From Synechococcus sp. BL107 (GTDB taxonomy: Bacteria; Cyanobacteriota; Cyanobacteriia; PCC-6307; Cyanobiaceae), in the NCBI RefSeq assembly GCF_000153805.1, contig NZ_DS022298.1, positions 1,099,434 through 1,163,433 on the forward strand: a DNA stretch of 64,000 nucleotides, in the 5' to 3' direction. Every line of letters begins with the position of its first letter. The stretch's first letter is position 1. Of this stretch, positions 472-14,180 are shown one piece after another. Both the position numbers and the translations under genes were made by a program. Under the pieces are notes generated by a model. The model did no database searches, was not told the DNA's origin, and worked only from the letters and a program-made list of their open reading frames with translations.

Positions 472-3210
472 ATGGTAACTTTTGACGATTTTTATAGATC
501 TCTACCAGAGGACAGTAATAAGAGAGGGGAGTATTTCGAGAAGATATTCATTCCTTGGTTCCTAAAGACAGACCCTGTGTGGTCATCCAAGGTCAATCAG
601 GTCTGGCTATGGGACGACTATCCACAACGATGGGGCAAGGATTGTGGAATTGATCTCGTTTATGAGGATACTGAGGGAAAGCACTGGGCAATTCAAAGCA
701 AGTGTGTTGCGCCTGAGCGTGAGATCTCCAAGGCAGAAATCGATAGTTTCCTCAGTGAGTCAAGTGATTCCAGGATTCATGGACGACTGCTGATCGCCTC
801 AACGGATGGCATCGGCAAGAACGCACAACAAGTCCTTGATAGACAGGAAAAGCAAGTTGTCTGTTTCTTGCTTGAGCAGTTCAGGCAATCAGAGGTCGAG
901 TACCCAACGTCCTCAGAAGATCTTTCAGGGGGTCAGAGAAGGAAGAAGCGCACACCACTCCCCCATCAACTGGAAGCAATCAACAACGTCGTAGAGGGTT
1001 TCCAGCAGGAAGACAGGGGTCAACTCCTAATGGCGTGTGGCACAGGAAAGACACTGACTTCGCTTTGGATTAAAGAAGCACTGAAGGTCAAGCGGACACT
1101 TGTTCTTCTCCCGTCCCTCAGTCTTCTGTCTCAGACCCTTAGGGAGTGGTCAGCAACGAGTCAGGAGAAATTCAACTGGATCTGTGTCTGCTCTGACAAG
1201 TCAGTCGCAAAGCAGGACAACACCACTGACAGCATGATTGAGCGTGTCAGTGCACTTGGTGTTCCCGTCACAAGCGACCCAGATGAAATCAAAAGATTCC
1301 TTCTGGGCAATGACGGTGGAATTGTGTTCTCGACATATCAATCCTCTCCATTAGTCGAAGAGTCGCAGAGATCACCAGAAGTCCCATCATTTGATATTGC
1401 ATTTGCAGACGAGGCACATCGTTGTGCAGGAAAAGTTTCAAGTGCTTTTGGCAGCATCCTTGATGACCAGAAGATTAGGTCAAAAAAACGCTTGTTCATG
1501 ACTGCAACACCAAGAGTGCTGTCAAAGCAAATTAAGAACAAAGCAGATGAAGAGAATATCAATCTTGCCTGTATGGATGACAGTTCACAATTCGGTGAAG
1601 TATTCCATCAACTCAATTTCTCAGAGGCAATTGAGAATGATCTGTTAAGCGATTATCAGGTTGTCATCGTAGGCGTTGATGACCCATCTGTTCAGGCCAA
1701 AATACTGGACAGAGTGATTGTAGATACAGGTAATGAATGCAATATCGATACAGAAACACTTGCGAATCATATTGCTCTTGCAAAGGCAATTAAAGATTAT
1801 GACCTGAGTCGAATGATCACCTTTCATAGTCGGGTCAAGTCAGCAAAGAAATTCTCTGAGGACCACCCTTTAATCCTTGATTGGATCCCTGAAGCATCCA
1901 AATCATCGAAGTCGGCAATGACTTCATACGTTTCAGGAGAGATGAACGCAAAAAATAGAAATACTGAAATCAATAAGTTGAAAAATGTCAGTGAGCAAGA
2001 GTTTGGAATACTTGCCAACGCAAGATGCTTATCTGAAGGAGTTGATGTCCCGACTCTTGATGGAATTGCATTTTTCGATCCCAGGAGCAGTCAGGTCGAC
2101 ATCATTCAGGCAGTTGGTCGTGCAATCCGAAAGAGTGAGAATAAAACCGATGGATACATCATCCTTCCTGTTTATCTTGGTGATACTACCAATGTCGAAG
2201 ATGAGATCCTGCAAAGCAGGTTTAAAGATATTTGGAGCATTATTCTTGCTCTAAAATCCCAAGATGACTGTATGCGTGACGAGTTGGATCAATTGAGAGT
2301 AGAACTCGGCAGAAGGAATGCTCCAACGGAATCAGTCAAAGGATTATCCAAGATTATCTTTGACCTACCTTCTAGTATTTCAACTACTTTTGCGGATTCA
2401 CTGACGACCATACTTGTAAGAGAAACGACAGAGAACTGGATGGAAAAGTATGGTCAATTTAAGCAATATATTGAGGTGAATGGCAATGCTTTAGTTCCCC
2501 AAACTCATCCAGAACTCGGAAGATGGGTGGAGGTGCAACGATTACACAAGAAAAGAGACAAGTTACAAGAAGAACGAATTCAACTTCTTAACATTCTTGG
2601 ATTCTCATGGGATCCATTCGCAGATTTATGGAAAATAAGATGTCAAGAACTAAAGCAATATACAGAGGACAATGGGAGTATAAGAGTTTCTGAAAATTAT
2701 CCAGTACTTGGGAGATGGGTTAAAAAGCAGAGATCAAAGAGGAAAAATGGACAGTTGTCGGAAGATCAGATACAAATGCTGAATGATATTGGTTTCATAT
2801 GGGAACCATTTGCAGAACCTTGGCAAAAAAAATATCAAGAACTTAAGAACTTCATTGAGCATAATGGCAGTAATGAAGTTTCCAATCATTCAGTACTTAG
2901 GGTATGGTGTCGTTCGCAGAGATCTGAAAGAAAGGAAGGGAAATTATCAGAAGAACGAATCCAACTTCTTGATAAAATTGGTTTCATCTGGGGTGTAAGA
3001 GAAGAAAGATGGCAAGAAAAGTACCAACTTCTCAAAAAATATATTAATCACAATGGTGATGCCAAAGTTCCCGATAAACATCCAACACTTGGAACTTGGG
3101 TTAGAACTCAACGAAGAACAAAGAGGGTAGATCAATTATCACAAGAGCGCATCCAACTTCTTGATAAAATTGGATTCATCTGGGACCCACCGCGGGGATG
3201 CGGTAAATAA
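472..3210 (+). CDS. Restriction-endonuclease-like / SF2 helicase with four helicase-associated repeats
   Basis: A 912-residue multidomain protein. Residues about 15-140 look like an Mrr/PD-(D/E)XK nuclease domain (GIDL near 59-62, then WAIQSK at 72-77). A superfamily 2 helicase core follows: Walker A MACGTGKT (187-194), DEAH (313-316), TATP (344-347) and motif VI QAVGRAIR (546-553). The C-terminus has four tandem helicase-associated (HA) domains of about 60 residues, starting near 656, 719, 784 and 847, each ending in a GFxW-type block. HA arrays occur in helicases of algae, cyanobacteria and linear actinobacterial plasmids. A strong AGGAGG lies just before the ATG. The upstream nuclease gene is probably co-transcribed. 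A role in phage defence or element replication is inference. Confidence 0.8.
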   Translation: MVTFDDFYRSLPEDSNKRGEYFEKIFIPWFLKTDPVWSSKVNQVWLWDDYPQRWGKDCGIDLVYEDTEGKHWAIQSKCVAPEREISKAEIDSFLSESSDSRIHGRLLIASTDGIGKNAQQVLDRQEKQVVCFLLEQFRQSEVEYPTSSEDLSGGQRRKKRTPLPHQLEAINNVVEGFQQEDRGQLLMACGTGKTLTSLWIKEALKVKRTLVLLPSLSLLSQTLREWSATSQEKFNWICVCSDKSVAKQDNTTDSMIERVSALGVPVTSDPDEIKRFLLGNDGGIVFSTYQSSPLVEESQRSPEVPSFDIAFADEAHRCAGKVSSAFGSILDDQKIRSKKRLFMTATPRVLSKQIKNKADEENINLACMDDSSQFGEVFHQLNFSEAIENDLLSDYQVVIVGVDDPSVQAKILDRVIVDTGNECNIDTETLANHIALAKAIKDYDLSRMITFHSRVKSAKKFSEDHPLILDWIPEASKSSKSAMTSYVSGEMNAKNRNTEINKLKNVSEQEFGILANARCLSEGVDVPTLDGIAFFDPRSSQVDIIQAVGRAIRKSENKTDGYIILPVYLGDTTNVEDEILQSRFKDIWSIILALKSQDDCMRDELDQLRVELGRRNAPTESVKGLSKIIFDLPSSISTTFADSLTTILVRETTENWMEKYGQFKQYIEVNGNALVPQTHPELGRWVEVQRLHKKRDKLQEERIQLLNILGFSWDPFADLWKIRCQELKQYTEDNGSIRVSENYPVLGRWVKKQRSKRKNGQLSEDQIQMLNDIGFIWEPFAEPWQKKYQELKNFIEHNGSNEVSNHSVLRVWCRSQRSERKEGKLSEERIQLLDKIGFIWGVREERWQEKYQLLKKYINHNGDAKVPDKHPTLGTWVRTQRRTKRVDQLSQERIQLLDKIGFIWDPPRGCGK

Positions 3211-3516: not shown

Positions 3517-3987
3517 CTACCGGATCCAGGGACATTGATCTGCATAACGCCAATAGATCGAGGCGTGTCCACTTGCTACTAGCTGTTGCTGGACATTGGA
3601 TCCATCTACAAAGAGCTCTGCCACGGTTCGTCCATAACGATCAGTGGTAATACGCCGAATGGTGATCTTGCGACCAACTACCAGTTCCCTCAGATAGTCG
3701 CGCGCTTCTATTGCCTGGACAGGCTCTGCGCGTTTACCCCGTAACTCAGGGGTATCAATGCAAGCCAACCTGATCTTTTCGCCGGTGCTGCTGGTGCAGG
3801 TGTCTCCGTCGTAGCAACTGGTTATCACAACCTGTTCTGAGGTTTGTCCCAGTGCGACCTTCGGGAGCAGAAGCGTCGCAAAGAGGCATAGCCCAAGGTA
3901 TGCCTTGAGTGAGTGTGACCATCCCCGCTGCCGGTGAACTCTTGAGCGCTTCATTGGCTCATTTGTGTTCCATTGAGTTAAGACCAT
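3517..3987 (-). CDS. Secreted thermonuclease (staphylococcal nuclease family)
   Basis: A 156-residue protein of the SNase/TNase OB-fold family, which hydrolyses DNA and RNA with calcium. An N-terminal hydrophobic signal (about 28-47, ending ALGQ) suggests export. Family residues are visible: DGDT at 60-63, IRLACIDTPE at 72-81 (equivalents of Arg35, Asp40 and Glu43 of staphylococcal nuclease) and DRYGRT at 116-121, which supplies the second catalytic arginine. All catalytic positions look intact. The first ATG has a weak purine run upstream; an internal ATG at codon 12 would still keep the signal peptide. It converges on the small ribbon-helix-helix gene with a 16 bp gap. Roles in nucleotide scavenging or clearing foreign DNA are possible. 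Confidence 0.85.
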   Translation of the reverse strand: MVLTQWNTNEPMKRSRVHRQRGWSHSLKAYLGLCLFATLLLPKVALGQTSEQVVITSCYDGDTCTSSTGEKIRLACIDTPELRGKRAEPVQAIEARDYLRELVVGRKITIRRITTDRYGRTVAELFVDGSNVQQQLVASGHASIYWRYADQCPWIR

Positions 3988-4073: not shown

Positions 4074-5096
4074 GTGGCTACTTTCCTATTCATCATAATG
4101 ATATTTCTCATAGTGATTCTTGTCATAAGGTCCAAGGATTTATCGGATGATTCGATAAATTATCAAATCACGAATAGAAATAAAGCAGGGTTAAATAAAA
4201 AAATTTCTGACGAAGTAAATGATCAAGATCTCGATCAAGAGGAGAAAGTGATACTAGTAACTCAGTCTCGCGAGGTCGTAAAGACGGTCTCGGGGCGAAT
4301 GTTTTGGGAGGAGGGTTTCGGCACGAATGAATGTCCAGGGATGAGGTCTTCTGTGCCGCGATGGTTTGTTGATATCCGGGACACGAAGAAGTTAAGAATA
4401 AATAGCATGACGTCTTCGACTTTTTACTTTAGAAATGATGGTTATATTTTTGTGATTACTGGACAATATGGCGACCCTCCCCGGCCTCTTCAGGAAGCAG
4501 CCAAAAATAGTGAGAAGAAGAATGAGTACTTATTTATTGATATGTATATGAAAGGCAAGAAAAGCCGAGGTGAATACACGACGTGGGAATGTAGTGAATA
4601 CATTCCAGGTGATGATTGTGATGATAAGTCAAATTTTTGGGTTGTAGCGGCCTCTGCAAGAAGGACTGGACGTTTTGCATATGGAGCAACTCGGAAATCT
4701 CTAAAGCAATTCATTGAGGGTCCTGACATAGAAGTTCCTTGGATTTATGCCGTGTATTTTGACCAATTTACTGAGGAATATGAGGCAAGATATAGGGCAC
4801 GAGTAGAGCAAGCGGCTGAGGATAGGCGTCAAAGTAACGAATGGTCTAAAAGAAATACATATAGGATTGAATTTGACATTAATGACTTTGTTTCCTCTGC
4901 AAGCGGAAAGAGTGTTGATCACTACGATGTATTAGGTCTTGAAAAAAATGCCGGACCTCGGCAAATAAAACATGCCTATTGGACCTTAGCTAAATCCTGT
5001 CATCCTGACTTGAATCCAAATGATGTTAAAGCTGCTGAGAAATTTAAAATGATCTCAGAGTCCTATCAGCAGCTCATTAGAAAATTTAGTGTTTAG
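4074..5096 (+). CDS. Membrane-anchored protein with C-terminal J domain
   Basis: A 340-residue protein with one hydrophobic helix at the very N-terminus (about 3-18), an unrecognised central region, and a J domain at about 282-338 that contains the essential HPD tripeptide at 310-312. J domains stimulate the ATPase of Hsp70/DnaK; the C-terminal position and the anchor suggest a specialised membrane-tethered co-chaperone. No Gly/Phe or zinc-finger DnaJ regions are present. The start is GTG at 4074; an ATG at codon 9 would shorten the membrane helix. AT-rich codon use sets it apart from core genes. The central segment (about 75-235) contains WWx- and cysteine-bearing patches that match no family I can name. 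Confidence 0.7.
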   Translation: MATFLFIIMIFLIVILVIRSKDLSDDSINYQITNRNKAGLNKKISDEVNDQDLDQEEKVILVTQSREVVKTVSGRMFWEEGFGTNECPGMRSSVPRWFVDIRDTKKLRINSMTSSTFYFRNDGYIFVITGQYGDPPRPLQEAAKNSEKKNEYLFIDMYMKGKKSRGEYTTWECSEYIPGDDCDDKSNFWVVAASARRTGRFAYGATRKSLKQFIEGPDIEVPWIYAVYFDQFTEEYEARYRARVEQAAEDRRQSNEWSKRNTYRIEFDINDFVSSASGKSVDHYDVLGLEKNAGPRQIKHAYWTLAKSCHPDLNPNDVKAAEKFKMISESYQQLIRKFSV

Positions 5097-5378: not shown

Positions 5379-6626
5379 CTAAGAATTATTTTTAATGTAA
5401 TCCAGCATTTTAATGGTAGCGGAATCATTGGGCTTAATCAAAAGAGCTTTTTCTAAATCTCGCTTGGCAGCGTCAATGCTTTTATAAGTATCATAATAAA
5501 TTGAAGCTCGATTTAAGAGTGATTGGAAATCATTAGGATCTAACGTTATTGCTGCCGTAAGGTCGACTAACGCTGAAATATGGTCTCTCCTTATGATATT
5601 AATAGTCGCCTTTAATCTATAAGCCTTCGAAAAAGATGGATCAAGGCTTATCGCTCTCTCTGCACCAGCCAAGGCAGATCTAAAGGATCTAATCGAATAC
5701 ATTCCAACAGCTCGATAATATTCACTTCGAGCACTTGTTTCGATTAAACTAGCCTTATCAGCCAAGATCATAATCTCTACGGGGTCCGAGTTGCCGCTTC
5801 TAAGTAGTGACTCTATTTTGAGTAAATACTTATCGGCACTGCTGATCATCCCGCCAGTATTTCGATTACTAGAAGGTACTTCTTTTATCTCTGAGCTAAA
5901 AAAGGAAAGGGGGATCCCTTGATTCGTTCCAGTCTTGACTAAAATATTTTTATTAGAAGTCATTTCTACATCGATCTCTCCAAGGCCATGAATTGCCAAT
6001 AATTCTCCTTGAGTGCCAAGCACAGGTCCACCACTCATCCCAGGCAAAGTATTATTAGAGTATAGAAAGTTATAGCCATTAGGAAGTTGGATATTTGGGT
6101 CATATGCAATAACTCTGCCATCCAAAAATCTAAAAATTCTAGAGTTAACCGAATCTGTTCGCAATGGAAAGCCTCCAACAAATATGCTCGAGCCAATCAT
6201 ATTTTTATCAATACTTGCAATGCGTGCTGTTTTATAGTTATTGGTAGATGTGAATTTAATAGTAGCTAAATCAACATTTTTAACCCTCTTTACAGAGGAG
6301 GGAAGATGAAAATACTGATTATCGTTAATGACTAAAGTAATCTCTTCTCCTGGTTGATTGGATTTGAGTACATGCCAAGCAGTAAGCACCGTGTAGGTGT
6401 TCCCATCTTTTTTGACAATTACCCCTGACCCCTGCGTAGCGCCTTCTACGCGAACAGTGATTTCCTTCGCGATACGAGCAATATTTGAAGCATCCTGCGC
6501 TACTGCTGCATTCGGAGCCAGTACTACTGCTGAGGCTGCAAGGCCAACTGCCAAAGATCTACTAACCAGAAGGTGCTGGAATATTGGTAGGAGATTCGGC
6601 GCTGCTCCGTTTATGTCCTTTTTCAT
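5379..6626 (-). CDS. Exported trypsin-like serine protease with TPR repeats
   Basis: A 415-residue protein with a signal peptide (about 22-43, cut near AVAQ). The protease domain (about 48-245) has the catalytic histidine in TAWHVL (H85), aspartate in VDLATI (D119) and nucleophile in PGMSGGP (S198). About three tetratricopeptide repeats follow (270-410), with the spacing pattern typical of solenoid protein-binding arrays. It is the last gene of a three-gene operon and starts 3 bp after the metallopeptidase-like gene. A paralogue lies inverted at 8242-9579. Trypsin-TPR proteins are common in cyanobacteria, usually of unknown substrate; periplasmic or thylakoid-lumen location is inferred. Confidence 0.85.
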   Translation of the reverse strand: MKKDINGAAPNLLPIFQHLLVSRSLAVGLAASAVVLAPNAAVAQDASNIARIAKEITVRVEGATQGSGVIVKKDGNTYTVLTAWHVLKSNQPGEEITLVINDNQYFHLPSSVKRVKNVDLATIKFTSTNNYKTARIASIDKNMIGSSIFVGGFPLRTDSVNSRIFRFLDGRVIAYDPNIQLPNGYNFLYSNNTLPGMSGGPVLGTQGELLAIHGLGEIDVEMTSNKNILVKTGTNQGIPLSFFSSEIKEVPSSNRNTGGMISSADKYLLKIESLLRSGNSDPVEIMILADKASLIETSARSEYYRAVGMYSIRSFRSALAGAERAISLDPSFSKAYRLKATINIIRRDHISALVDLTAAITLDPNDFQSLLNRASIYYDTYKSIDAAKRDLEKALLIKPNDSATIKMLDYIKNNS

Positions 6627-6629
6627 CCT

Positions 6630-7400
6630 CTAAAACAAACGATAGTTTTCATATGATTGTGATTGATTAAATCTGCGCAATAGTGCAATCAGTGCTCTCT
6701 TGATCTTGGGTGCATCGCCTGACTGGAGTATCTCCCCTAATTCAACTAACTCCTCTCTGGTGTAATTCTCTTTTGCCCACGCCAATAGAACCTTGAAGGA
6801 ATCCTCTCCCCCCACAATGGAAAGGATGCTCTCTTCACTCTCTGACGGTTGAGTTGTTGAATCGCCTGCACCAGAGTTGTTAGAAGAACCTTCGTTCTTA
6901 GAGCAAGCTCTCAAAAAGATATCCACAACCTGTTCAGGTGATTTCAGCTCCATATCAAATGCTTCTAACTCCATCATCTTGTCCCTTCCTCTGTATTGAT
7001 CGAGGATTGACGCGTAGTGGGGAGCTCTTGATTTCAAGTTCCTCAGCAAGCGTGGGTGGTATTCCGCTTTCCAGATCAGACCACCGTTACATGCCTGCAT
7101 GACATGAGCGCTTTCATGTGCGAGGACTTCCCACACTGCACTGACGTCTTCCATATCAATGTTGTTCGTACAGAAGACGAGGCGATCGCCACTGCCGTCT
7201 TTACGAGGTGGTTGATAGAACCCCATCGTCTGTCCGTCACAGGTGTCCAGCTTTTGGACCTTGGTACCTGTGCCTTTTACAAGCTCTATCAAGTCTTCGA
7301 CATCTTTCCAAGAGTCAGCGATTGCAGGCGTCGTCAGAGATAGGAAACCAAGTAGCTGGGTAGGGATAAGCAGGCTTGCAAGTAGCTGACGAGCTCTCAT
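6630..7400 (-). CDS. Exported HExxH putative zinc metallopeptidase
   Basis: A 256-residue protein with a signal peptide (cut near residues 27-29, after PAIA). LAHESAHVMQAC at 93-104 contains an HExxH zinc site (H95, E96, H99), and ELEAFDME at 144-151 offers glutamates placed like the third ligand of gluzincins. Cysteines at 54, 77, 104 and 166 could form disulfides in an oxidising compartment. It overlaps no neighbour but sits 8 bp behind the COP23-like gene and 3 bp ahead of the trypsin-TPR gene, so the three are almost certainly one transcript. I do not recognise a named family; the metallopeptidase call rests on the motif, the signal and the context. Confidence 0.65.
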   Translation of the reverse strand: MRARQLLASLLIPTQLLGFLSLTTPAIADSWKDVEDLIELVKGTGTKVQKLDTCDGQTMGFYQPPRKDGSGDRLVFCTNNIDMEDVSAVWEVLAHESAHVMQACNGGLIWKAEYHPRLLRNLKSRAPHYASILDQYRGRDKMMELEAFDMELKSPEQVVDIFLRACSKNEGSSNNSGAGDSTTQPSESEESILSIVGGEDSFKVLLAWAKENYTREELVELGEILQSGDAPKIKRALIALLRRFNQSQSYENYRLF

Positions 7401-7408
7401 ATGAGTAT

Positions 7409-7969
7409 TCAGAACAGGGGTAGTGGTGAAGTGCTGCTTGGTGTGGCGGAAGGCATTGGAGCAACGACAGCACCTGACTTATTCCTAATGATCGAGTCCA
7501 CACTCACGTACATCCGTGCTGTTGTTTCTTCAAGTGGTGCAGCTCCTGGCTTAGAGCGAATGTCGAACAGCTTTTGCAAGGTAGCCGTGGCGTTCTGACC
7601 AGGCTTCAAGGTGTAAAGCAGTCCAGCGCACGCACCACCATCTGATTTGGCGACGCAGATCACCGGCATGCCATTCATACGTCCAGTGGTGATGTAATCG
7701 AGATTGCCAGCTGCATGGAAACTTTGGAAACGGCTTGAGACCTCTTGGCATCTACGTTCTGGCGTCCAACCAGCACCAGAGAAGGTTGTGCTCTTCCAGT
7801 AGATGATTGGTACTTGCTTATCCGTTTTGGTTTGGACGACGGTGGCTGGCACTCCGTCAGCGTTCATGCAGGAGATTGATGAAGCTAGGGCAGAACTCGC
7901 ATTTACTCGGAGTCCTGTAGGAACTACACAAGCAACGATGGCTGTAGCAATTACGAATCCTCTTGCCAT
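7409..7969 (-). CDS. COP23-domain exported protein
   Basis: A 186-residue protein with an N-terminal signal sequence (about 5-30) and a central region that resembles the circadian oscillating protein COP23 family: SCMNADGVPATVVQ, then a WxPExRCQEVSSRFQ block, then MNGMPVICVAKSDGGAC. Paired cysteines suggest a disulfide-stabilised extracytoplasmic domain. COP23 was described in cyanobacteria as a membrane-associated protein with daily expression cycles; its molecular role is unknown. The C-terminus is a Ser/Pro-rich low-complexity tail. It is the first gene of an operon with the metallopeptidase-like and trypsin-TPR genes. This linkage points to a shared proteolytic or protease-regulating function, possibly substrate or inhibitor. 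Confidence 0.7.
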   Translation of the reverse strand: MARGFVIATAIVACVVPTGLRVNASSALASSISCMNADGVPATVVQTKTDKQVPIIYWKSTTFSGAGWTPERRCQEVSSRFQSFHAAGNLDYITTGRMNGMPVICVAKSDGGACAGLLYTLKPGQNATATLQKLFDIRSKPGAAPLEETTARMYVSVDSIIRNKSGAVVAPMPSATPSSTSPLPLF

Positions 7970-8241: not shown

Positions 8242-9579
8242 TTGAAACGTTCTTTTTCGGAATTCCTGATATTTGATGCAAGGAAGGCTCTTTCTTTTCT
8301 GGTCCCAATTCTTGTTGTTGGTTTGTCTGGTTGTTCTGATACCAAGACTACGCTAGATCCAGAAAATATTGCGAAACTGGCAAGATCAGGCTCTGTCAAA
8401 ATTGAAGGCTCTACACAAGGTAGTGGATTTATTGAAGGTATTTCTTGCGCAGGCGGAATAAGTAGATCACCTTTTAGTAAACCTTATTGCAATATCGAAT
8501 ATAAGGTAATAACGGCTGCGCATGTTGTCCAAGATTTGCGGAGTGATGATGAATTATCCGTTATTACTTTTGATGGGGCGGCGCATGGTGTTACTTCTGT
8601 GGAAATCAATTCATCAGGTCTTGATATTGCTCGACTGACATTTAATATCGAAGTCCCTAAGTATTCTTCTTTGAATATTTTAAATTCGTCTAAAGTAAGT
8701 CGAGGCTCTGTTGAATCTCCACTTCAAGTAGGAGAAACCTTGTATGTTTCGGGCTTCCCACTTGCGACTACCGCAGTTCCTAATAGAAGTCTCCGATTTA
8801 CCGATGGTAAGTTAATTGCAGTTCTTGATGAGAAAGTTGTCGGTGGATATCAAGTTTTATACTCAAATTCAACACTTCCAGGCATGAGTGGTTCGCCTGT
8901 ATTTAATAGTTCTGGCCAAGTTGTTGCTATGCATGGAAGAGGTGAAGTGGAAGCTACTTTGACAAGTCAAACAGGAATAGCGGTTAAAACTGGGCAGAAT
9001 CAAGGTATTCCATTATTCCTTCAAGATAGTGCTGGTCAATATACAAATATTTATTCCAAGTCAACAATTGGTTCTGCTAATGCTCCTATTGGCAAACGCA
9101 TTAGATCTTTTGCGAAAGATGGTGGTGTTGAGCAGCCGAAGCAGCCTCTGAATAGTTCAATTGAGCCACTGACGAGTGATATACCAACGGATAAGCAGTT
9201 AGGGGATCTCGTCCAAGCCTGGCTGAACGCCACAGCCAAAGCACTTGCTGGTCAGACAAATGCTGTGCCTTATGCAGTTTCGAAGGAGATTTCCACCGTT
9301 GCCCGCGATCGGTTGTTGCAACGGGTGCAAGCAGAGCGCGCCGCTGATGCCGCGCTGGGCTATACAAAAATCATCAAGTCTTCTGTCACCAGTGTTGAGG
9401 TGGTGAGCCGAACCCCACGGCGCATTGCTGTGAAGGTTGAGGTGGTTTACTCCGATCAAACACTTGATCGCTCCGGAACCACCATTGATCAGACACCTGC
9501 AGGAGCTTTGACCGTCACCTATGTGCTTGGGCGAGATGGAAAACAGTGGAAATTGCATGAGTACATTTCAGACTTTTGA
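8242..9579 (+). CDS. Trypsin-like protease lipoprotein with ARC6/IMS-like C-terminal domain
   Basis: A 445-residue protein starting at TTG, since no ATG is available after the in-frame stop at 8233. A lipoprotein signal ends in LSGC with C31 as the predicted lipidated residue. The protease domain is a paralogue of the 5379-6626 product: histidine in TAAHVV (H94), aspartate in LDIARL (D128), serine in PGMSGSP (S216). The last 130 residues (about 313-445) look like the IMS domain found in ARC6-related cyanobacterial proteins, with the W-x-x-AxAKAL start and a VTYVLxRDGKQWKLHEY end. Base composition changes near 9,130 from AT-rich to core-like, suggesting a fusion of a foreign protease to a resident domain. 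Confidence 0.8.
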   Translation: MKRSFSEFLIFDARKALSFLVPILVVGLSGCSDTKTTLDPENIAKLARSGSVKIEGSTQGSGFIEGISCAGGISRSPFSKPYCNIEYKVITAAHVVQDLRSDDELSVITFDGAAHGVTSVEINSSGLDIARLTFNIEVPKYSSLNILNSSKVSRGSVESPLQVGETLYVSGFPLATTAVPNRSLRFTDGKLIAVLDEKVVGGYQVLYSNSTLPGMSGSPVFNSSGQVVAMHGRGEVEATLTSQTGIAVKTGQNQGIPLFLQDSAGQYTNIYSKSTIGSANAPIGKRIRSFAKDGGVEQPKQPLNSSIEPLTSDIPTDKQLGDLVQAWLNATAKALAGQTNAVPYAVSKEISTVARDRLLQRVQAERAADAALGYTKIIKSSVTSVEVVSRTPRRIAVKVEVVYSDQTLDRSGTTIDQTPAGALTVTYVLGRDGKQWKLHEYISDF

Positions 9580-9642: not shown

Positions 9643-12072
9643 TTAATTAAACATATATTGGCTATTCAATATTTTTTGTAAATCACCCTTTCCTTGAACG
9701 AGTTTTGGATGCTCTTTAGAGGGAACTTTCAAATTATTTGCAAGGCGAGCTAAGGGGTCGCCATGACAAATTTCTATAAAAGCCTTGCGTACACGTTCAT
9801 GAGCTTGGTCCATATCGTTTGGCAGCACTGAGATGCAGTCGTGGATGGTCCCCAATGGCTTGCTCCACTGCTGAAAGGCTGTCTTCAGCAGGCATGCGTC
9901 GTAGCTGTGAACGAAGTTGGGTGCGAATCCACTCTTTAGCTTCTTCTCGTTTGGCTCATTGACCGAGCCCACAGCGATTCGCATCCGTCCGTGGCCGTAG
10001 GTGTCCACCTCAATTGAGTCGACTTCGTATTCGGATTGATGGATCTGATCACTACATGGTGTCTCCCACCAGAGTGATGTCGCACCGTTTTCGATGGCTT
10101 TGGTGCATAGCTGTCTTAACCAATCAAGGGTTTCAAAGGCGGCCGGGAAAACCTGCTTGCTGGCTTTCTGCAGGATGTCTGTCATCACCTTGGTGTCATC
10201 CCAGCTGACCATGTCTGGATATGAGCCCAACTTTCTCAGCGCATCGACGATGTCGCCTCTGTTGGTTCGATATGACCCTCCGTAGATTGCAATCATCAGT
10301 ACAGGTTTGCCCAGGCTTCGATCCGTCAGATGTTTTGCAAGCCATACGGTTTGAGGATCGGCTTCCGCTATCTCCCGTGCTACACGGAGTACCTCCAGAT
10401 ACGCATCACGCGGTGGTTGGTCGGGGTCTTCTGAAGGGATGAGGTTCGTCCACTTCATGCCGACTGGGTCACGACGCATCGCACTCAGCAGCTGCAACCC
10501 CGATGCAGTGCTGTCCACACTCACCGGCACCTGCCAAAGCGGCTTCGTCTGTTGAAGGACAACGGCGTTCCACTCCATTGCCATCTGAAGGAACTGCCAG
10601 GGTTCATCGGCGTTCTCCCATTGGCTGCTGTGTCTGATTGGGTCAGAAGCAATGGCAGCAATCAACTCAGTGTTTTCGTAGGTCCACTGGCTTCTTGCTG
10701 CGTAGCTCTGCTTTGTACCGCCGAACGCCGCACCGACTGCCCGTGCTGCCCACTCCTTTCCTTGTTCGTCCAGTCGGCAGCCATCGGCAAACCTCAGGAC
10801 TGAACGCTCGAAGTCTCGGGACTGTGGGTCCAGCCACGATTGCTGCGAGTAGATCCGTCCCCGGAAGTCACAGCTCCACGACAGCCAGAAGCGTTGACGG
10901 GTCTCGTTTTTCCGCGCGGAAATAAGGACAGCCTGAGCACTCTGCGTTTTCTCGATGTGCTCCTGCTCTTGGTCGTGGAGGTATGCCTGCCGTTTGCGCC
11001 AGGCAACTCTGTCCGGGTGTTTTTTATCCAGAGCCTTCAAATGATCTGGCATCTCTTGGTTCAGCTCTGGGTTCTCAAAGGGACTGTTGAACCCGGCGAT
11101 GCTGCGCTGCGTTTCCCAGCAGTCGTCGATCACCTCAAAGACAAGTGGATCCACTTGGAAGGCAGTTCTCCCAAGGGTGTTCAGAAGGTTGATCGCATCA
11201 GATCCAAACCGGGTTTCGTAGTGCCGACCCCTGCACAACGGGTTGTTTGGTTTGCGTGTGTACGGCAGGTGATAGCCGCCACTGAAGTTGAACCGGGCTT
11301 CACCGTCTTGTAGCTGCCAGTCCAATGGCGGTTCGATCAAGACATCCTTTGTCGTCACTAGGTCGTCGATTTGTTCCTTTCGTTTGGATAGATGCTCTTC
11401 CAGCGCAGGCGTTGGGACGACAAACTTCTCTGATCGGTTCTTGGCGACCCACCTTGTCTGCGCATCGAAGTACTTCTCCTTAATTGCTGGATCCAGCAGC
11501 AGTGATCCCACCTGGGTATGCAGTACTGAAGGCCAGTCCTGGTAGAGATCGTCCTTAGCCCACCCCTTTTCCAGCAGTCGGCGTTCCATCGCCAGCTTCA
11601 CACCGAGGTTTCGATACTTGGGTGTTGAACGCGGCTTCTTCAGCCGTTTGTTTCGGATCTTCTTTCCGTTCTCATCCAAGTTCAAGGTGAAGAACTGGTT
11701 CCTCAACTCCTCTTGGATGGCTCGCCCGATGGCAGTGCAGACGTGAGTGCGCTGGTTCTGTTTGGTGTGGATGCAATCGATCAGCTTCCGCAGAGCAACA
11801 AATGCCACGTGTTCGAACGAGACCTCTAAATCCTTGAGCTGGAAGTACAAATGGGAAGCTGCTGATGCAAACCTTCCGTTGCGTCCCACCAGATGCGTGA
11901 CATGGGATTCGACCGCTTTGCTGTACTCGATGAAGATGTATCGGGTGAGTTGTTGTCCTTCTGCAGTGCTGGAGAAATACCCGCGCTCGATTGCTTGCCT
12001 GACCTGATTCTCCCTCTTACGCAGTGCTTCGATCGTTGTGTCTATTTCGTGTTGATGTTGTTTGGTTTTCAT
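9643..12072 (-). CDS. Single-subunit T7-type DNA-directed RNA polymerase
   Basis: A full-length 809-residue relative of phage T7 RNA polymerase (883 residues). DFRGRIY lies at 402-408. Motif A holds the first catalytic aspartate (SVDSTASGLQ, D520, like T7 D537). Motif B has R585, K589 and Y597 (like T7 R627, K631, Y639). Motif C is IHDCISVLP with H744 and D745 (like T7 D812). The C-terminus keeps the GDLQKILNSQ-type foot and ends in an aromatic residue plus Asn. All catalytic residues appear intact and there is no frameshift. It starts 11 bp after the recombinase stop and is probably co-transcribed. Its cognate promoters are unknown; no consensus T7 promoter was seen. Confidence 0.93.
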   Translation of the reverse strand: MKTKQHQHEIDTTIEALRKRENQVRQAIERGYFSSTAEGQQLTRYIFIEYSKAVESHVTHLVGRNGRFASAASHLYFQLKDLEVSFEHVAFVALRKLIDCIHTKQNQRTHVCTAIGRAIQEELRNQFFTLNLDENGKKIRNKRLKKPRSTPKYRNLGVKLAMERRLLEKGWAKDDLYQDWPSVLHTQVGSLLLDPAIKEKYFDAQTRWVAKNRSEKFVVPTPALEEHLSKRKEQIDDLVTTKDVLIEPPLDWQLQDGEARFNFSGGYHLPYTRKPNNPLCRGRHYETRFGSDAINLLNTLGRTAFQVDPLVFEVIDDCWETQRSIAGFNSPFENPELNQEMPDHLKALDKKHPDRVAWRKRQAYLHDQEQEHIEKTQSAQAVLISARKNETRQRFWLSWSCDFRGRIYSQQSWLDPQSRDFERSVLRFADGCRLDEQGKEWAARAVGAAFGGTKQSYAARSQWTYENTELIAAIASDPIRHSSQWENADEPWQFLQMAMEWNAVVLQQTKPLWQVPVSVDSTASGLQLLSAMRRDPVGMKWTNLIPSEDPDQPPRDAYLEVLRVAREIAEADPQTVWLAKHLTDRSLGKPVLMIAIYGGSYRTNRGDIVDALRKLGSYPDMVSWDDTKVMTDILQKASKQVFPAAFETLDWLRQLCTKAIENGATSLWWETPCSDQIHQSEYEVDSIEVDTYGHGRMRIAVGSVNEPNEKKLKSGFAPNFVHSYDACLLKTAFQQWSKPLGTIHDCISVLPNDMDQAHERVRKAFIEICHGDPLARLANNLKVPSKEHPKLVQGKGDLQKILNSQYMFN

Positions 12073-12083
12073 GGCTGATTGGA

Positions 12084-13469
12084 TTAATAACTTTCGGTTT
12101 CGATATTTCTTACACTTGAAGATCCATAATTGAAATCCGTTATCTCTTTTGCCTTTTTGCTCATGTCAATCCTGGCGTAGTACTTCTCGCAAACAGCAAT
12201 TGTATGTCCAGCAAGCTTTGCCACTGTGTAAATATCTTTGTTGTCTAAAATTAGGTTACATATGTAAGTACTTCGCAGGCTATAAGGCGTATAGTTTCTG
12301 TCGCTGAATACATAAGGTTTGAGCCTGGGGTTAATCCCATCAATGACTTTTCTCCATGTCCTGTTGAAACCGTTATAGGCGTATTGCTTCATTTCATTGT
12401 GAGGATTACCAAAGATCAGAGTTTCTTCAGTGATCTCTATTCCAGTGCAATATTTCTCGATGTATTGCCTTTGCTCCTCCTTCCATTGCATGAGTTGACT
12501 GTCCACTCCATTGGTCGGGATGATGCGCTGTTTGCCTGTCTTTGAGTCACGGACATGGAGGACTGCAATCCACTTGTCCTTCTTCTTTTCCTCTGACTTG
12601 GACCATCGACCGACGTTCTCTCGTCGTACGTCGCACCACCGAAGCTTGTTCAGCTCAATGTCCGGTCGGAGTCCAGCATTTCTGCAAACGATGCACCACC
12701 GATAAAACAACTGTGCGAAGTACAAGCCCCGATGGTTTCGTAGCTTCGCTGCACGATCCCGGTTGTTGCTCAATGCAACGACCACCTTCTGCCAATTGCC
12801 TTGTTCGATCAAAGGTGGATTGGCAACGACTTCGGAATCTTTGATCGCAATGGTTGGAAGGGCTTCGCGGGGTGAAACCTCGATGTCTAGTAGCCCACGC
12901 CGTTTACAGAATTCGTTGAGAAAATTTCCGAAGTACGTCAGCTCAAGCTTTCTTGTGGATTTGGCGGCATCTCGCCATGTCGGATAGTCCTCGAACGTAT
13001 TGATGTCGATCTGTCGTGTGTGTGTCACTCCCTTCTCTGCCAGGTAAGGGAGCAACTGCTTAAGCAGTGCCTGGCTCTTGTTCAAAAGGCTTCGGGGTTT
13101 GAGTAGATCCGCATCGACCTTTCGTTGTTCGGCTTCTAAAAACTCAGTGACACAAGCCTCTATTGGTCTGTTCTTGTATCTGCCGGTGTTTGAGTTTCTA
13201 GTGGCTCTTCCTTGACTCCCTAAGGCATGTTTCTGAGTCGTTCCATCAGTTCCGTGCGGAATGGCTTGATCTTTTCTGAGCGCCGTATAAGCCTCGATGC
13301 ACTCTTCTAAAGCGTCCTCAATGGTGGAGGAGTTAGGCAGCAGTCGATGTAAGTACCGCTTGGTGTTGGGTACCTTTTCGCGCCAGTAGAAGTTCTCGGG
13401 CTTATCCACGTACGACAAGACGACCCCTTTGCCGCCTAGCGCTTTGGCCTTTTGAGCAATGGCAGGCAT
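12084..13469 (-). CDS. Tyrosine recombinase (phage-type integrase)
   Basis: A 461-residue tyrosine recombinase. Catalytic candidates are R268 in NAGLRPDIEL, K310 in RDSKTGK, R399 in PYSLRSTY, H422 in LAGHTIAVC and the nucleophile at Y430 or Y431 (EKYYARID). The position normally His in HxxR is Tyr (Y396), a tolerated variant in some integrases. An N-terminal arm-binding region (about 1-60) and a core-binding SAM-like domain (about 100-195) precede the catalytic domain. The ATG follows CAGGAG by 7 bases. The gene abuts a terminator hairpin behind rpsD and is followed by the RNA polymerase gene, an order also seen in T7-like cyanopodoviruses. It probably integrates or excises the island. Confidence 0.88.
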   Translation of the reverse strand: MPAIAQKAKALGGKGVVLSYVDKPENFYWREKVPNTKRYLHRLLPNSSTIEDALEECIEAYTALRKDQAIPHGTDGTTQKHALGSQGRATRNSNTGRYKNRPIEACVTEFLEAEQRKVDADLLKPRSLLNKSQALLKQLLPYLAEKGVTHTRQIDINTFEDYPTWRDAAKSTRKLELTYFGNFLNEFCKRRGLLDIEVSPREALPTIAIKDSEVVANPPLIEQGNWQKVVVALSNNRDRAAKLRNHRGLYFAQLFYRWCIVCRNAGLRPDIELNKLRWCDVRRENVGRWSKSEEKKKDKWIAVLHVRDSKTGKQRIIPTNGVDSQLMQWKEEQRQYIEKYCTGIEITEETLIFGNPHNEMKQYAYNGFNRTWRKVIDGINPRLKPYVFSDRNYTPYSLRSTYICNLILDNKDIYTVAKLAGHTIAVCEKYYARIDMSKKAKEITDFNYGSSSVRNIETESY

Positions 13470-13512: not shown

Positions 13513-13530
13513 TTGAGTAAAGTTTGAGTA
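13510..13530. repeat. Tandem 10-bp direct repeat between integrase and rpsD
   Basis: AGTTTGAGTA occurs at 13510-13519 and again at 13521-13530, an 11-bp period, so both copies lie on the same face of the helix. The pair sits between the integrase start and rpsD, where an attachment site or recombinase arm sites would be expected. Function is inferred from location. Confidence 0.5.
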
Positions 13531-13531
13531 G

Positions 13532-13557
13532 GGATTCGAAAAAAGCTCGAATTCCTT
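13532..13557. other. Inverted repeat after the rpsD stop codon
   Basis: GGATTCGA and TCGAATTCC flank a short A-rich centre, forming an imperfect palindrome 15 bp past the end of rpsD. It could be a weak secondary terminator or the strand-exchange core of an attachment site; sequence alone does not decide. Confidence 0.35.
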
Positions 13558-13571
13558 GCCGTGAGCGAAGC

Positions 13572-14180
13572 TTAGACCTTGCGGGAGTAGTACTCCACCA
13601 CCAGCAATTCGTTGATTTCCAGGGCAACCCATTCGCGTTCGCAGCGACCGGTGCACTTGGCGCTCAACTTGGCTTTATCCAACTCCAAGTGGGGAGGGAT
13701 GTTGGATAGGCCGGGGAAGGCAAGGTTGCCTTCGGCTAGCTGTTTGCTGCCTTTCTTTTCGCGGATGGCCAACACGTCGCCGGGCTTCACCTGATAACTG
13801 GCGATGTCCGTGACACGACCGTTCACGGTCACGTGGCCATGGTTCACCAGCTGACGGGATCCAGGAACGGTGGGGCCGAAGCCGAGGCGGAAGCAGATGT
13901 TGTCCAGTCTGCTTTCCAAAAGCTTGAGCAGGTTGGTTCCAGTGGAACCCTCCTGGGCACGGGCCTTTTTCACGTAGCGCACGAGTTGGCGCTCGGAGAC
14001 TCCGTAGTTGAAGCGAAGTTTTTGCTTTTCTTCGAGGCGGATTGCGTATTCGGAGCGCTTGCGACGGGCTTGGCCGTGCTGACCGGGGGGATAGGACCGC
14101 TTTGCGGCCTTCCGGGTGAGACCAGGGAGGTCTCCCAAGCGCCGCGTGATCCTCAGGCGAGGGCCGCGGTAGCGAGACAT
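13572..14180 (-). CDS. rpsD: 30S ribosomal protein S4
   Basis: A 202-residue protein matching bacterial S4 along its whole length: an N-terminal [21 protein letters not shown] block, basic [15 protein letters not shown], and an S4 RNA-binding domain (about 92-155) with [11 protein letters not shown] and [12 protein letters not shown]4 nucleates 30S assembly on 16S rRNA and can act as a translational regulator. No zinc-binding cysteine cluster is seen at the N-terminus, as in many cyanobacteria. It is transcribed away from yidD through a shared 75-bp intergenic region. A strong terminator and the integrase gene lie downstream. Confidence 0.97.

Follow-up and report, generated by a model that had tools for sequence, protein, structure and literature searches.

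A recombinase and phage-type RNA polymerase pair that marks one end of an integrative element with a structured RNA in picocyanobacteria

A tyrosine recombinase gene and the phage-type RNA polymerase (RNAP) gene behind it in Synechococcus sp. BL107 lie at one end of a mobile, integrative element of a type found in picocyanobacteria, in which the phage-type RNAP probably transcribes a structured RNA. This RNA represents a new structured RNA family with strong covariation. The element may also be of a new kind, in which phage-type RNAP switches on the structured RNA and its HTH-like partner. Members without an RNAP gene would then display promoters taken over from several podovirus lineages and await an infecting phage, and one branch, that of the window, would have internalised the polymerase and become independent of the promoter specificity of the phage. 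This broader reading falls somewhat short of being probable.

The window, i.e., the whole stretch of 64,000 nucleotides that was analyzed, carries the pair next to the right end of the element (window coordinates, with strand and methods in brackets):

9643..12072 (-): phage-type (T7-like) single-subunit RNAP, 809 aa (ORF, Pfam, PHROG, alignment, tree, dN/dS)
12084..13469 (-): tyrosine recombinase (integrase), 461 aa (ORF, Pfam, PHROG, integrase tree)
13515..13532 (-): 18-bp repeat GAGTAAAGTTTGAGTAGG, just within the right end (repeat comparison)
13571..13593 (-): right attachment site, 23-bp repeat CTTAGACCTTGCGGGAGTAGTAC, at the 3′ end (stop codon) of rpsD (repeat comparison)
13572..14180 (-): rpsD (ribosomal protein S4), host attachment gene

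The RNAP reading frame has no internal stops and matched Pfam RNA_pol (E 1.9e-51) and, over its full length, PHROG 414 'RNA polymerase' (E 5e-151). It is the single copy of a T7-type RNAP in the complete 2.29-Mb genome (G000). An earlier note on this DNA had described an intact polymerase, with both catalytic aspartates, the motif B Arg/Lys/Tyr and the C-terminal foot, 11 bp behind a tyrosine recombinase. Both observations were borne out: D520, D745, R585, K589, Y597 and the C-terminal FN foot are invariant in ten aligned element RNAPs, and the 11-bp spacer occupies 12073-12083. The recombinase matched a PHROG integrase (E 1e-17) and, below the Pfam cut-off, PF00589 (E 1.8e-5); it keeps Arg, Lys, Arg and His as well as the Tyr nucleophile, the first His being a Tyr in its subfamily. 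The note had also taken integrase followed by RNAP for the podovirus order, which is true of P-SSP7 and S-CBP1 but not of Syn5 and S-TIP28, where the RNAP precedes the integrase.

The element measures 22,495 bp and has a GC content of 44.6%, compared with 57% in the right flank. The window covers its right 13.6 kb; the left end, with the other copy of the 23-bp repeat (G000:1090509-1090531), lies 8.9 kb beyond the window start. A second copy of the 18-bp repeat was found just within the left end (L032 578-595), and this repeat is probably an integrase arm site. The recombinase gene starts about 100 bp past the 3′ end of rpsD. In G319, a relative whose RpsD protein is identical, the left-end flank comes directly after rpsD, i.e., the relative has an empty site. 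The island hence shows the hallmarks of an integrative element, namely a recombinase gene at one end, direct-repeat attachment sites and an empty site in a relative. At their 5′ ends, glyQ and a deacetylase-like gene bear further attachment repeats in relatives. The ORFs searched from attachment site to attachment site, the small ones in part, included no structural, terminase or DNA polymerase genes. This agrees with the earlier note, which had seen no capsid, portal, terminase or DNA polymerase gene leftward within the window; phage structural genes just beyond the window start, which by its account would have pointed to a simple prophage, were also absent from the ORFs searched in the 8.9 kb to the left end.

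Seven cargo genes of the element lie on both strands within the window:

472..3210 (+): restriction-type nuclease-helicase (Mrr_cat_2, ResIII, HA repeats), probably a defence enzyme
3517..3987 (-): thermonuclease (SNase), with a 59% relative in the G207 element
4074..5096 (+): DnaJ-domain protein
5379..6626 (-): trypsin-like protease with TPRs, the N-terminal part resembling the LmuA protease domain
6630..7400 (-): 256-aa protein without assigned function
7409..7969 (-): COP23-like protein
8242..9579 (+): trypsin-like protease with IMS domain

The window's 912-aa protein matches type IIG restriction enzymes, and the cargo left of the window includes two PD-(D/E)XK nucleases that are weakly Cas4-like (L032 7590-8270 and 9051-9893). 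At the same site, G207 carries an element with integrase and RNAP genes 86% identical to those of G000 and mostly different cargo. The same RNAP recurs in other islands with different cargo, where the earlier note had proposed to look for the recombinase–RNAP pair. A conserved G000/G207 block (L032 2765-3326) was first thought to be non-coding and was dropped when inspection by eye revealed small ORFs. The G207 element has a Glutamine-II riboswitch close to its left end (L033 1975-2033).

RNAP matches were obtained in 37 of 400 genomes of the family, sampled at one per species. About 15 belong to a close group of ~810 aa that spans many genera and includes Prochlorococcus single-cell genomes as well as Synechococcus; when contigs were searched, a single-protein query gave zero matches and an alignment query succeeded. 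The tree with cyanopodovirus polymerases that the note had called for placed the window RNAP outside the podoviruses: in the maximum-likelihood tree of 43 rows, all 13 element RNAPs formed one clade (100/100) on a long stem, with no phage RNAP within it. Element and cyanopodovirus RNAPs share 25-28% identity. The comparison of G000 with G207 gave dN/dS values of 0.078 (integrase), 0.108 (rpsD), 0.114 (RNAP) and 0.154 (ORF290, see below). With a value near that of rpsD, the polymerase is therefore retained by purifying selection and is not decaying, as the note had considered it might be; the G207 RNAP copy has one frameshift. RNAP-bearing and RNAP-less elements are intermixed in the integrase tree, where supported branches force at least four changes, and we therefore conclude that the RNAP has combined with several integrases. 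Podovirus integrases formed a clade of their own (99/99) that contained no element integrase.

The RNAP and a structured RNA (R1) are common to 13 related Prochlorococcus and Synechococcus loci, most of which also have an HTH-like gene. This gene, ORF290 (~290 aa), emerged from an all-against-all comparison as the third core gene. At nine loci it lies downstream of the RNAP, from which it is separated by a conserved stretch of ~350 nt. In the element of the window, these parts lie left of the window start:

G000 1093735-1094601: ORF290
G000 1094908-1095056 (-): RNA core (covariance-model search)
G000:1095090-1095116: the element's own promoter-like motif TTTTTACACCTACTATTGTGAAGGGAG

Comparing G000 with G207, the RNA region is 88% identical and the ORF290 DNA only 75%. 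A profile from nine loci recovered the RNA in three further loci (L034, L035 and L125). The alignment of 13 RNA cores revealed four helices with 84.9% of cells paired, and 15 of 20 pairs had changed on both sides. The covariation score was 0.596 compared with 0.204 ± 0.027 in shuffles (0/500), the signal was lost when the pairing was slid by one column, and the three main helices ranked top in an unbiased search of all column pairs. Six loci gave zero matches to Rfam at a relaxed threshold. The covariance model found the RNA in 29 of the 400 genomes, several of them without any RNAP gene; a search of the whole order, which in effect covers the same family, added no further loci. At RNAP-less loci the integrase is followed by the RNA and the RNA by ORF290 or a different small gene. 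UW140 and G115 have the RNAP and the R1 RNA at separate loci.

A variable direct repeat of ~12 nt stands on either side of the 3′ hairpin of the RNA (L032 4620-4900, G000:1094619-1094899) and changes in concert between elements, i.e., TCCCAAACATCTC in G000, TCCCAAGCATCT in G207 and TACAAGATCAAG in G056. We had considered TCCCAAACATCTC as a promoter and rejected it, as it occurs just twice, both times within the RNA, and is the paired repeat. ORF290 had no match in Pfam or PHROG. Structures predicted for three sequences (mean pLDDT 63.6) gave no significant fold match, with weak hits to ParB/Spo0J at E 6 and above. In IMG/VR viral contigs, ORF290 was not found with one sequence pattern; for the RNA, DNA-pattern matches were at chance level and none was confirmed by the covariance model.

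Directly 5′ of the RNA, a motif such as GGACACTAATAGTAGAGAAG that resembles T7 and SP6 promoters occurs once per RNAP-bearing element, apart from one case in which a partial duplicate of the RNA contains a second copy. The motif of the window's element is among the least T7-like, and spacing inside the motif varies among RNAP-bearing elements. No promoter-like motif was found at cargo genes, and the Syn5 promoter ATTGGGCACCCGTAA is absent from the G000 element. The note had suggested a motif shared by the intergenic regions of the island; what we found instead is a single motif per element, at the RNA. From its position and its resemblance to known promoters, we infer that the element RNAP may recognise this motif at the RNA 5′ end.

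RNAP-less loci lack this motif and have a different sequence in its place. Upstream of the RNA in loci of this type we found repeats such as TAATGGCGCACTTATACAGGGAAG, in 3-7 copies in five loci and as a single copy in two. They lie nearly all on the RNA sense strand; other parts of the locus have 0.00-0.09 copies per 620 bp. The genomes of array loci UW140 and G115 have an RNAP elsewhere, those of G092, G134 and G218 have none; the G115 array contains CGGGC, CACATG and ACCCG types. The published promoter of podovirus Syn5 (PMC3950665) has two copies in that phage, one within the RNAP gene and one directly behind the terminase. In S-CBP1, these two positions are taken by CCCACCCGTATACAGGGGGAG and a close variant of it. 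When patterns derived from the chromosomal arrays alone were scanned over 2.9 million IMG/VR viral contigs, array units lay at podovirus promoter positions, i.e., at +809 to +818 nt of the RNAP gene or 38-126 bp after the terminase, in 31/33, 10/10, 35/53 and 1/5 loci. A promoter matrix built from 35 distinct phage sites (reversed-sequence background 0.09 per 10 kb) detected further arrays behind integrases of the same family. G396 (L435 5713-6475), G147 (L433 5102-5241) and G291 (L436 5672-5780) have 17, 5 and 4 sites, respectively, the 17 of G396 within 760 bp. These three arrays lie directly behind the integrases, are followed by small ORFs and not by R1 RNA, hence the RNA is not the sole thing that arrays could drive; one such ORF in L433 is HTH_36-like (weak match), and the G396 locus also has a RepB-regulator-like gene. 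The G000 element has zero podovirus promoter sites above background, as expected if it uses its own RNAP.

We propose a core that would run from the recombinase through the phage-type RNAP, a single RNAP-type promoter and the structured RNA of ~350 nt to ORF290, with cargo inserted within. The element RNAP would recognise the motif and transcribe the RNA, along with ORF290, as its main task; in sister elements that lack an RNAP gene, a podovirus infecting the cell would supply the RNAP for this. Judging from the sequences, the RNA core may hence be transcribed by an RNAP that is either self-made or supplied by a podovirus. The family would behave as a phage satellite or phage-triggered element, of which the RNAP-bearing branch, including the window's own element, would have brought the polymerase in-house. 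As the least certain step, the RNA and ORF290 most likely would serve replication or maintenance of the element after excision.

The earlier note had offered two readings, neither of which fits the data as a whole. That a podovirus prophage has decayed to its control genes is extremely improbable. An integrase adjoining an RNAP is indeed the order in P-SSP7 and S-CBP1, but the RNAP clade lies outside the cyanopodoviruses, the integrase does not group with theirs and the RNAP is under purifying selection. Moreover, no structural genes were found among the ORFs searched up to the true left end, the same core recurs across genera, and the RNA and ORF290 were not found in IMG/VR with the patterns used. 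The other reading, an element with a private polymerase that drives its own cargo, was right about the element: the island is bounded by attachment sites, a relative has the empty site, and the polymerase is retained by selection and recurs in islands with different cargo. An intact RNAP under selection and a diverse cargo that likely includes defence enzymes would suit cargo as the target of the polymerase. This is nevertheless very unlikely, as each element has one promoter-like motif, which was found at the RNA and never before cargo genes, cargo genes lie on both strands, and the G079, G056 and G129 cores have little or no cargo.

The arrays could also act as decoys for podovirus RNAP, or the RNA as a phage-triggered anti-phage RNA, which would make the family a defence and not a satellite. 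Mixed promoter variants of several podovirus lineages in one array, as in the 17 sites of G396 or the G115 types, and the defence-like cargo would suit this explanation. A pure decoy, on the other hand, needs neither a structured RNA nor its own RNAP, and the single promoter of RNAP-bearing elements would be useless as one; we regard defence as rather unlikely. It is unlikely that the motif is merely a conserved RNA start and that the host RNAP transcribes the RNA. Differences in motif spacing among RNAP-bearing elements would be in line with this, but RNAP-less loci lack the motif there and yet carry, upstream, array units known from podovirus promoter positions. We therefore keep to transcription of the RNA by a phage-type RNAP as the probable explanation.

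T7-like cyanopodoviruses (Autographiviridae: P-SSP7, Syn5, S-CBP1) resemble the element in having a single-subunit RNAP, sometimes beside an integrase, and promoters of the same general type. They differ in that the element has an RNAP of a separate clade, an integrase of another group, and a structured RNA with ORF290, whereas no replication or structural genes were found among its ORFs searched. Phage satellites such as PICI, PLE and P4-like elements are likewise integrated and respond to signals from an infecting phage, either by sensing its proteins or through its activators. In contrast, the signal proposed here would be a phage RNAP acting on the element's copies of the phage promoter; such regulatory sequences of a helper phage are seen in RNAP-less relatives, and none above background in the window's element. 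Tycheposons of Prochlorococcus are reportedly tyrosine-recombinase elements with variable cargo, some of which are regarded as viral satellites, and are said to integrate at tRNA genes. Compared with this description, the attachment sites here lie at the termini of protein-coding genes (rpsD, glyQ), and no tRNA was present at the RNAP-bearing ends examined. Flamholz et al. (PMC10187409) define a picocyanobacterial element by its integrase; it sits beside tRNA-Phe or tRNA-Cys, a serine recombinase often accompanies it, and an RNAP is unreported. It shares the tyrosine integrase and the islands of variable genes with the element described here and differs in the tRNA site and the serine recombinase. 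No description of an element with RNAP, RNA and arrays was found in a search of non-subscription journals. If our proposal is true, picocyanobacteria harbor phage-responsive mobile DNA of a type not described in the literature searched. Besides a new family of structured RNAs, the analysis provided a set of new single-subunit RNAPs together with candidate promoters, as well as promoter sequences of many podoviruses that are still uncultured.

A second clade of chromosomal single-subunit RNAPs (~860-1260 aa) was observed in picocyanobacteria (L059, L064, L065, L056, L061, L062, L066 and L068). Some of its loci share a set of small genes (clusters 5-8, 14 and 22), which looks like another element type, and some close-group RNAPs (L042 (UW140), L046, L050 and L093) adjoin this gene set and not ORF290. 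In g56 genomes, RNA and RNAP fragments lie amid long TPR-like repeat proteins (L045, L057, L177-L179, L183 and L184), as if elements decay there. Finally, in AG-679-A04 an array of seven podovirus promoter-like sites (L043 1432-1875) precedes a broken element RNAP by 3 kb on the same strand, and two elements may be nested there.
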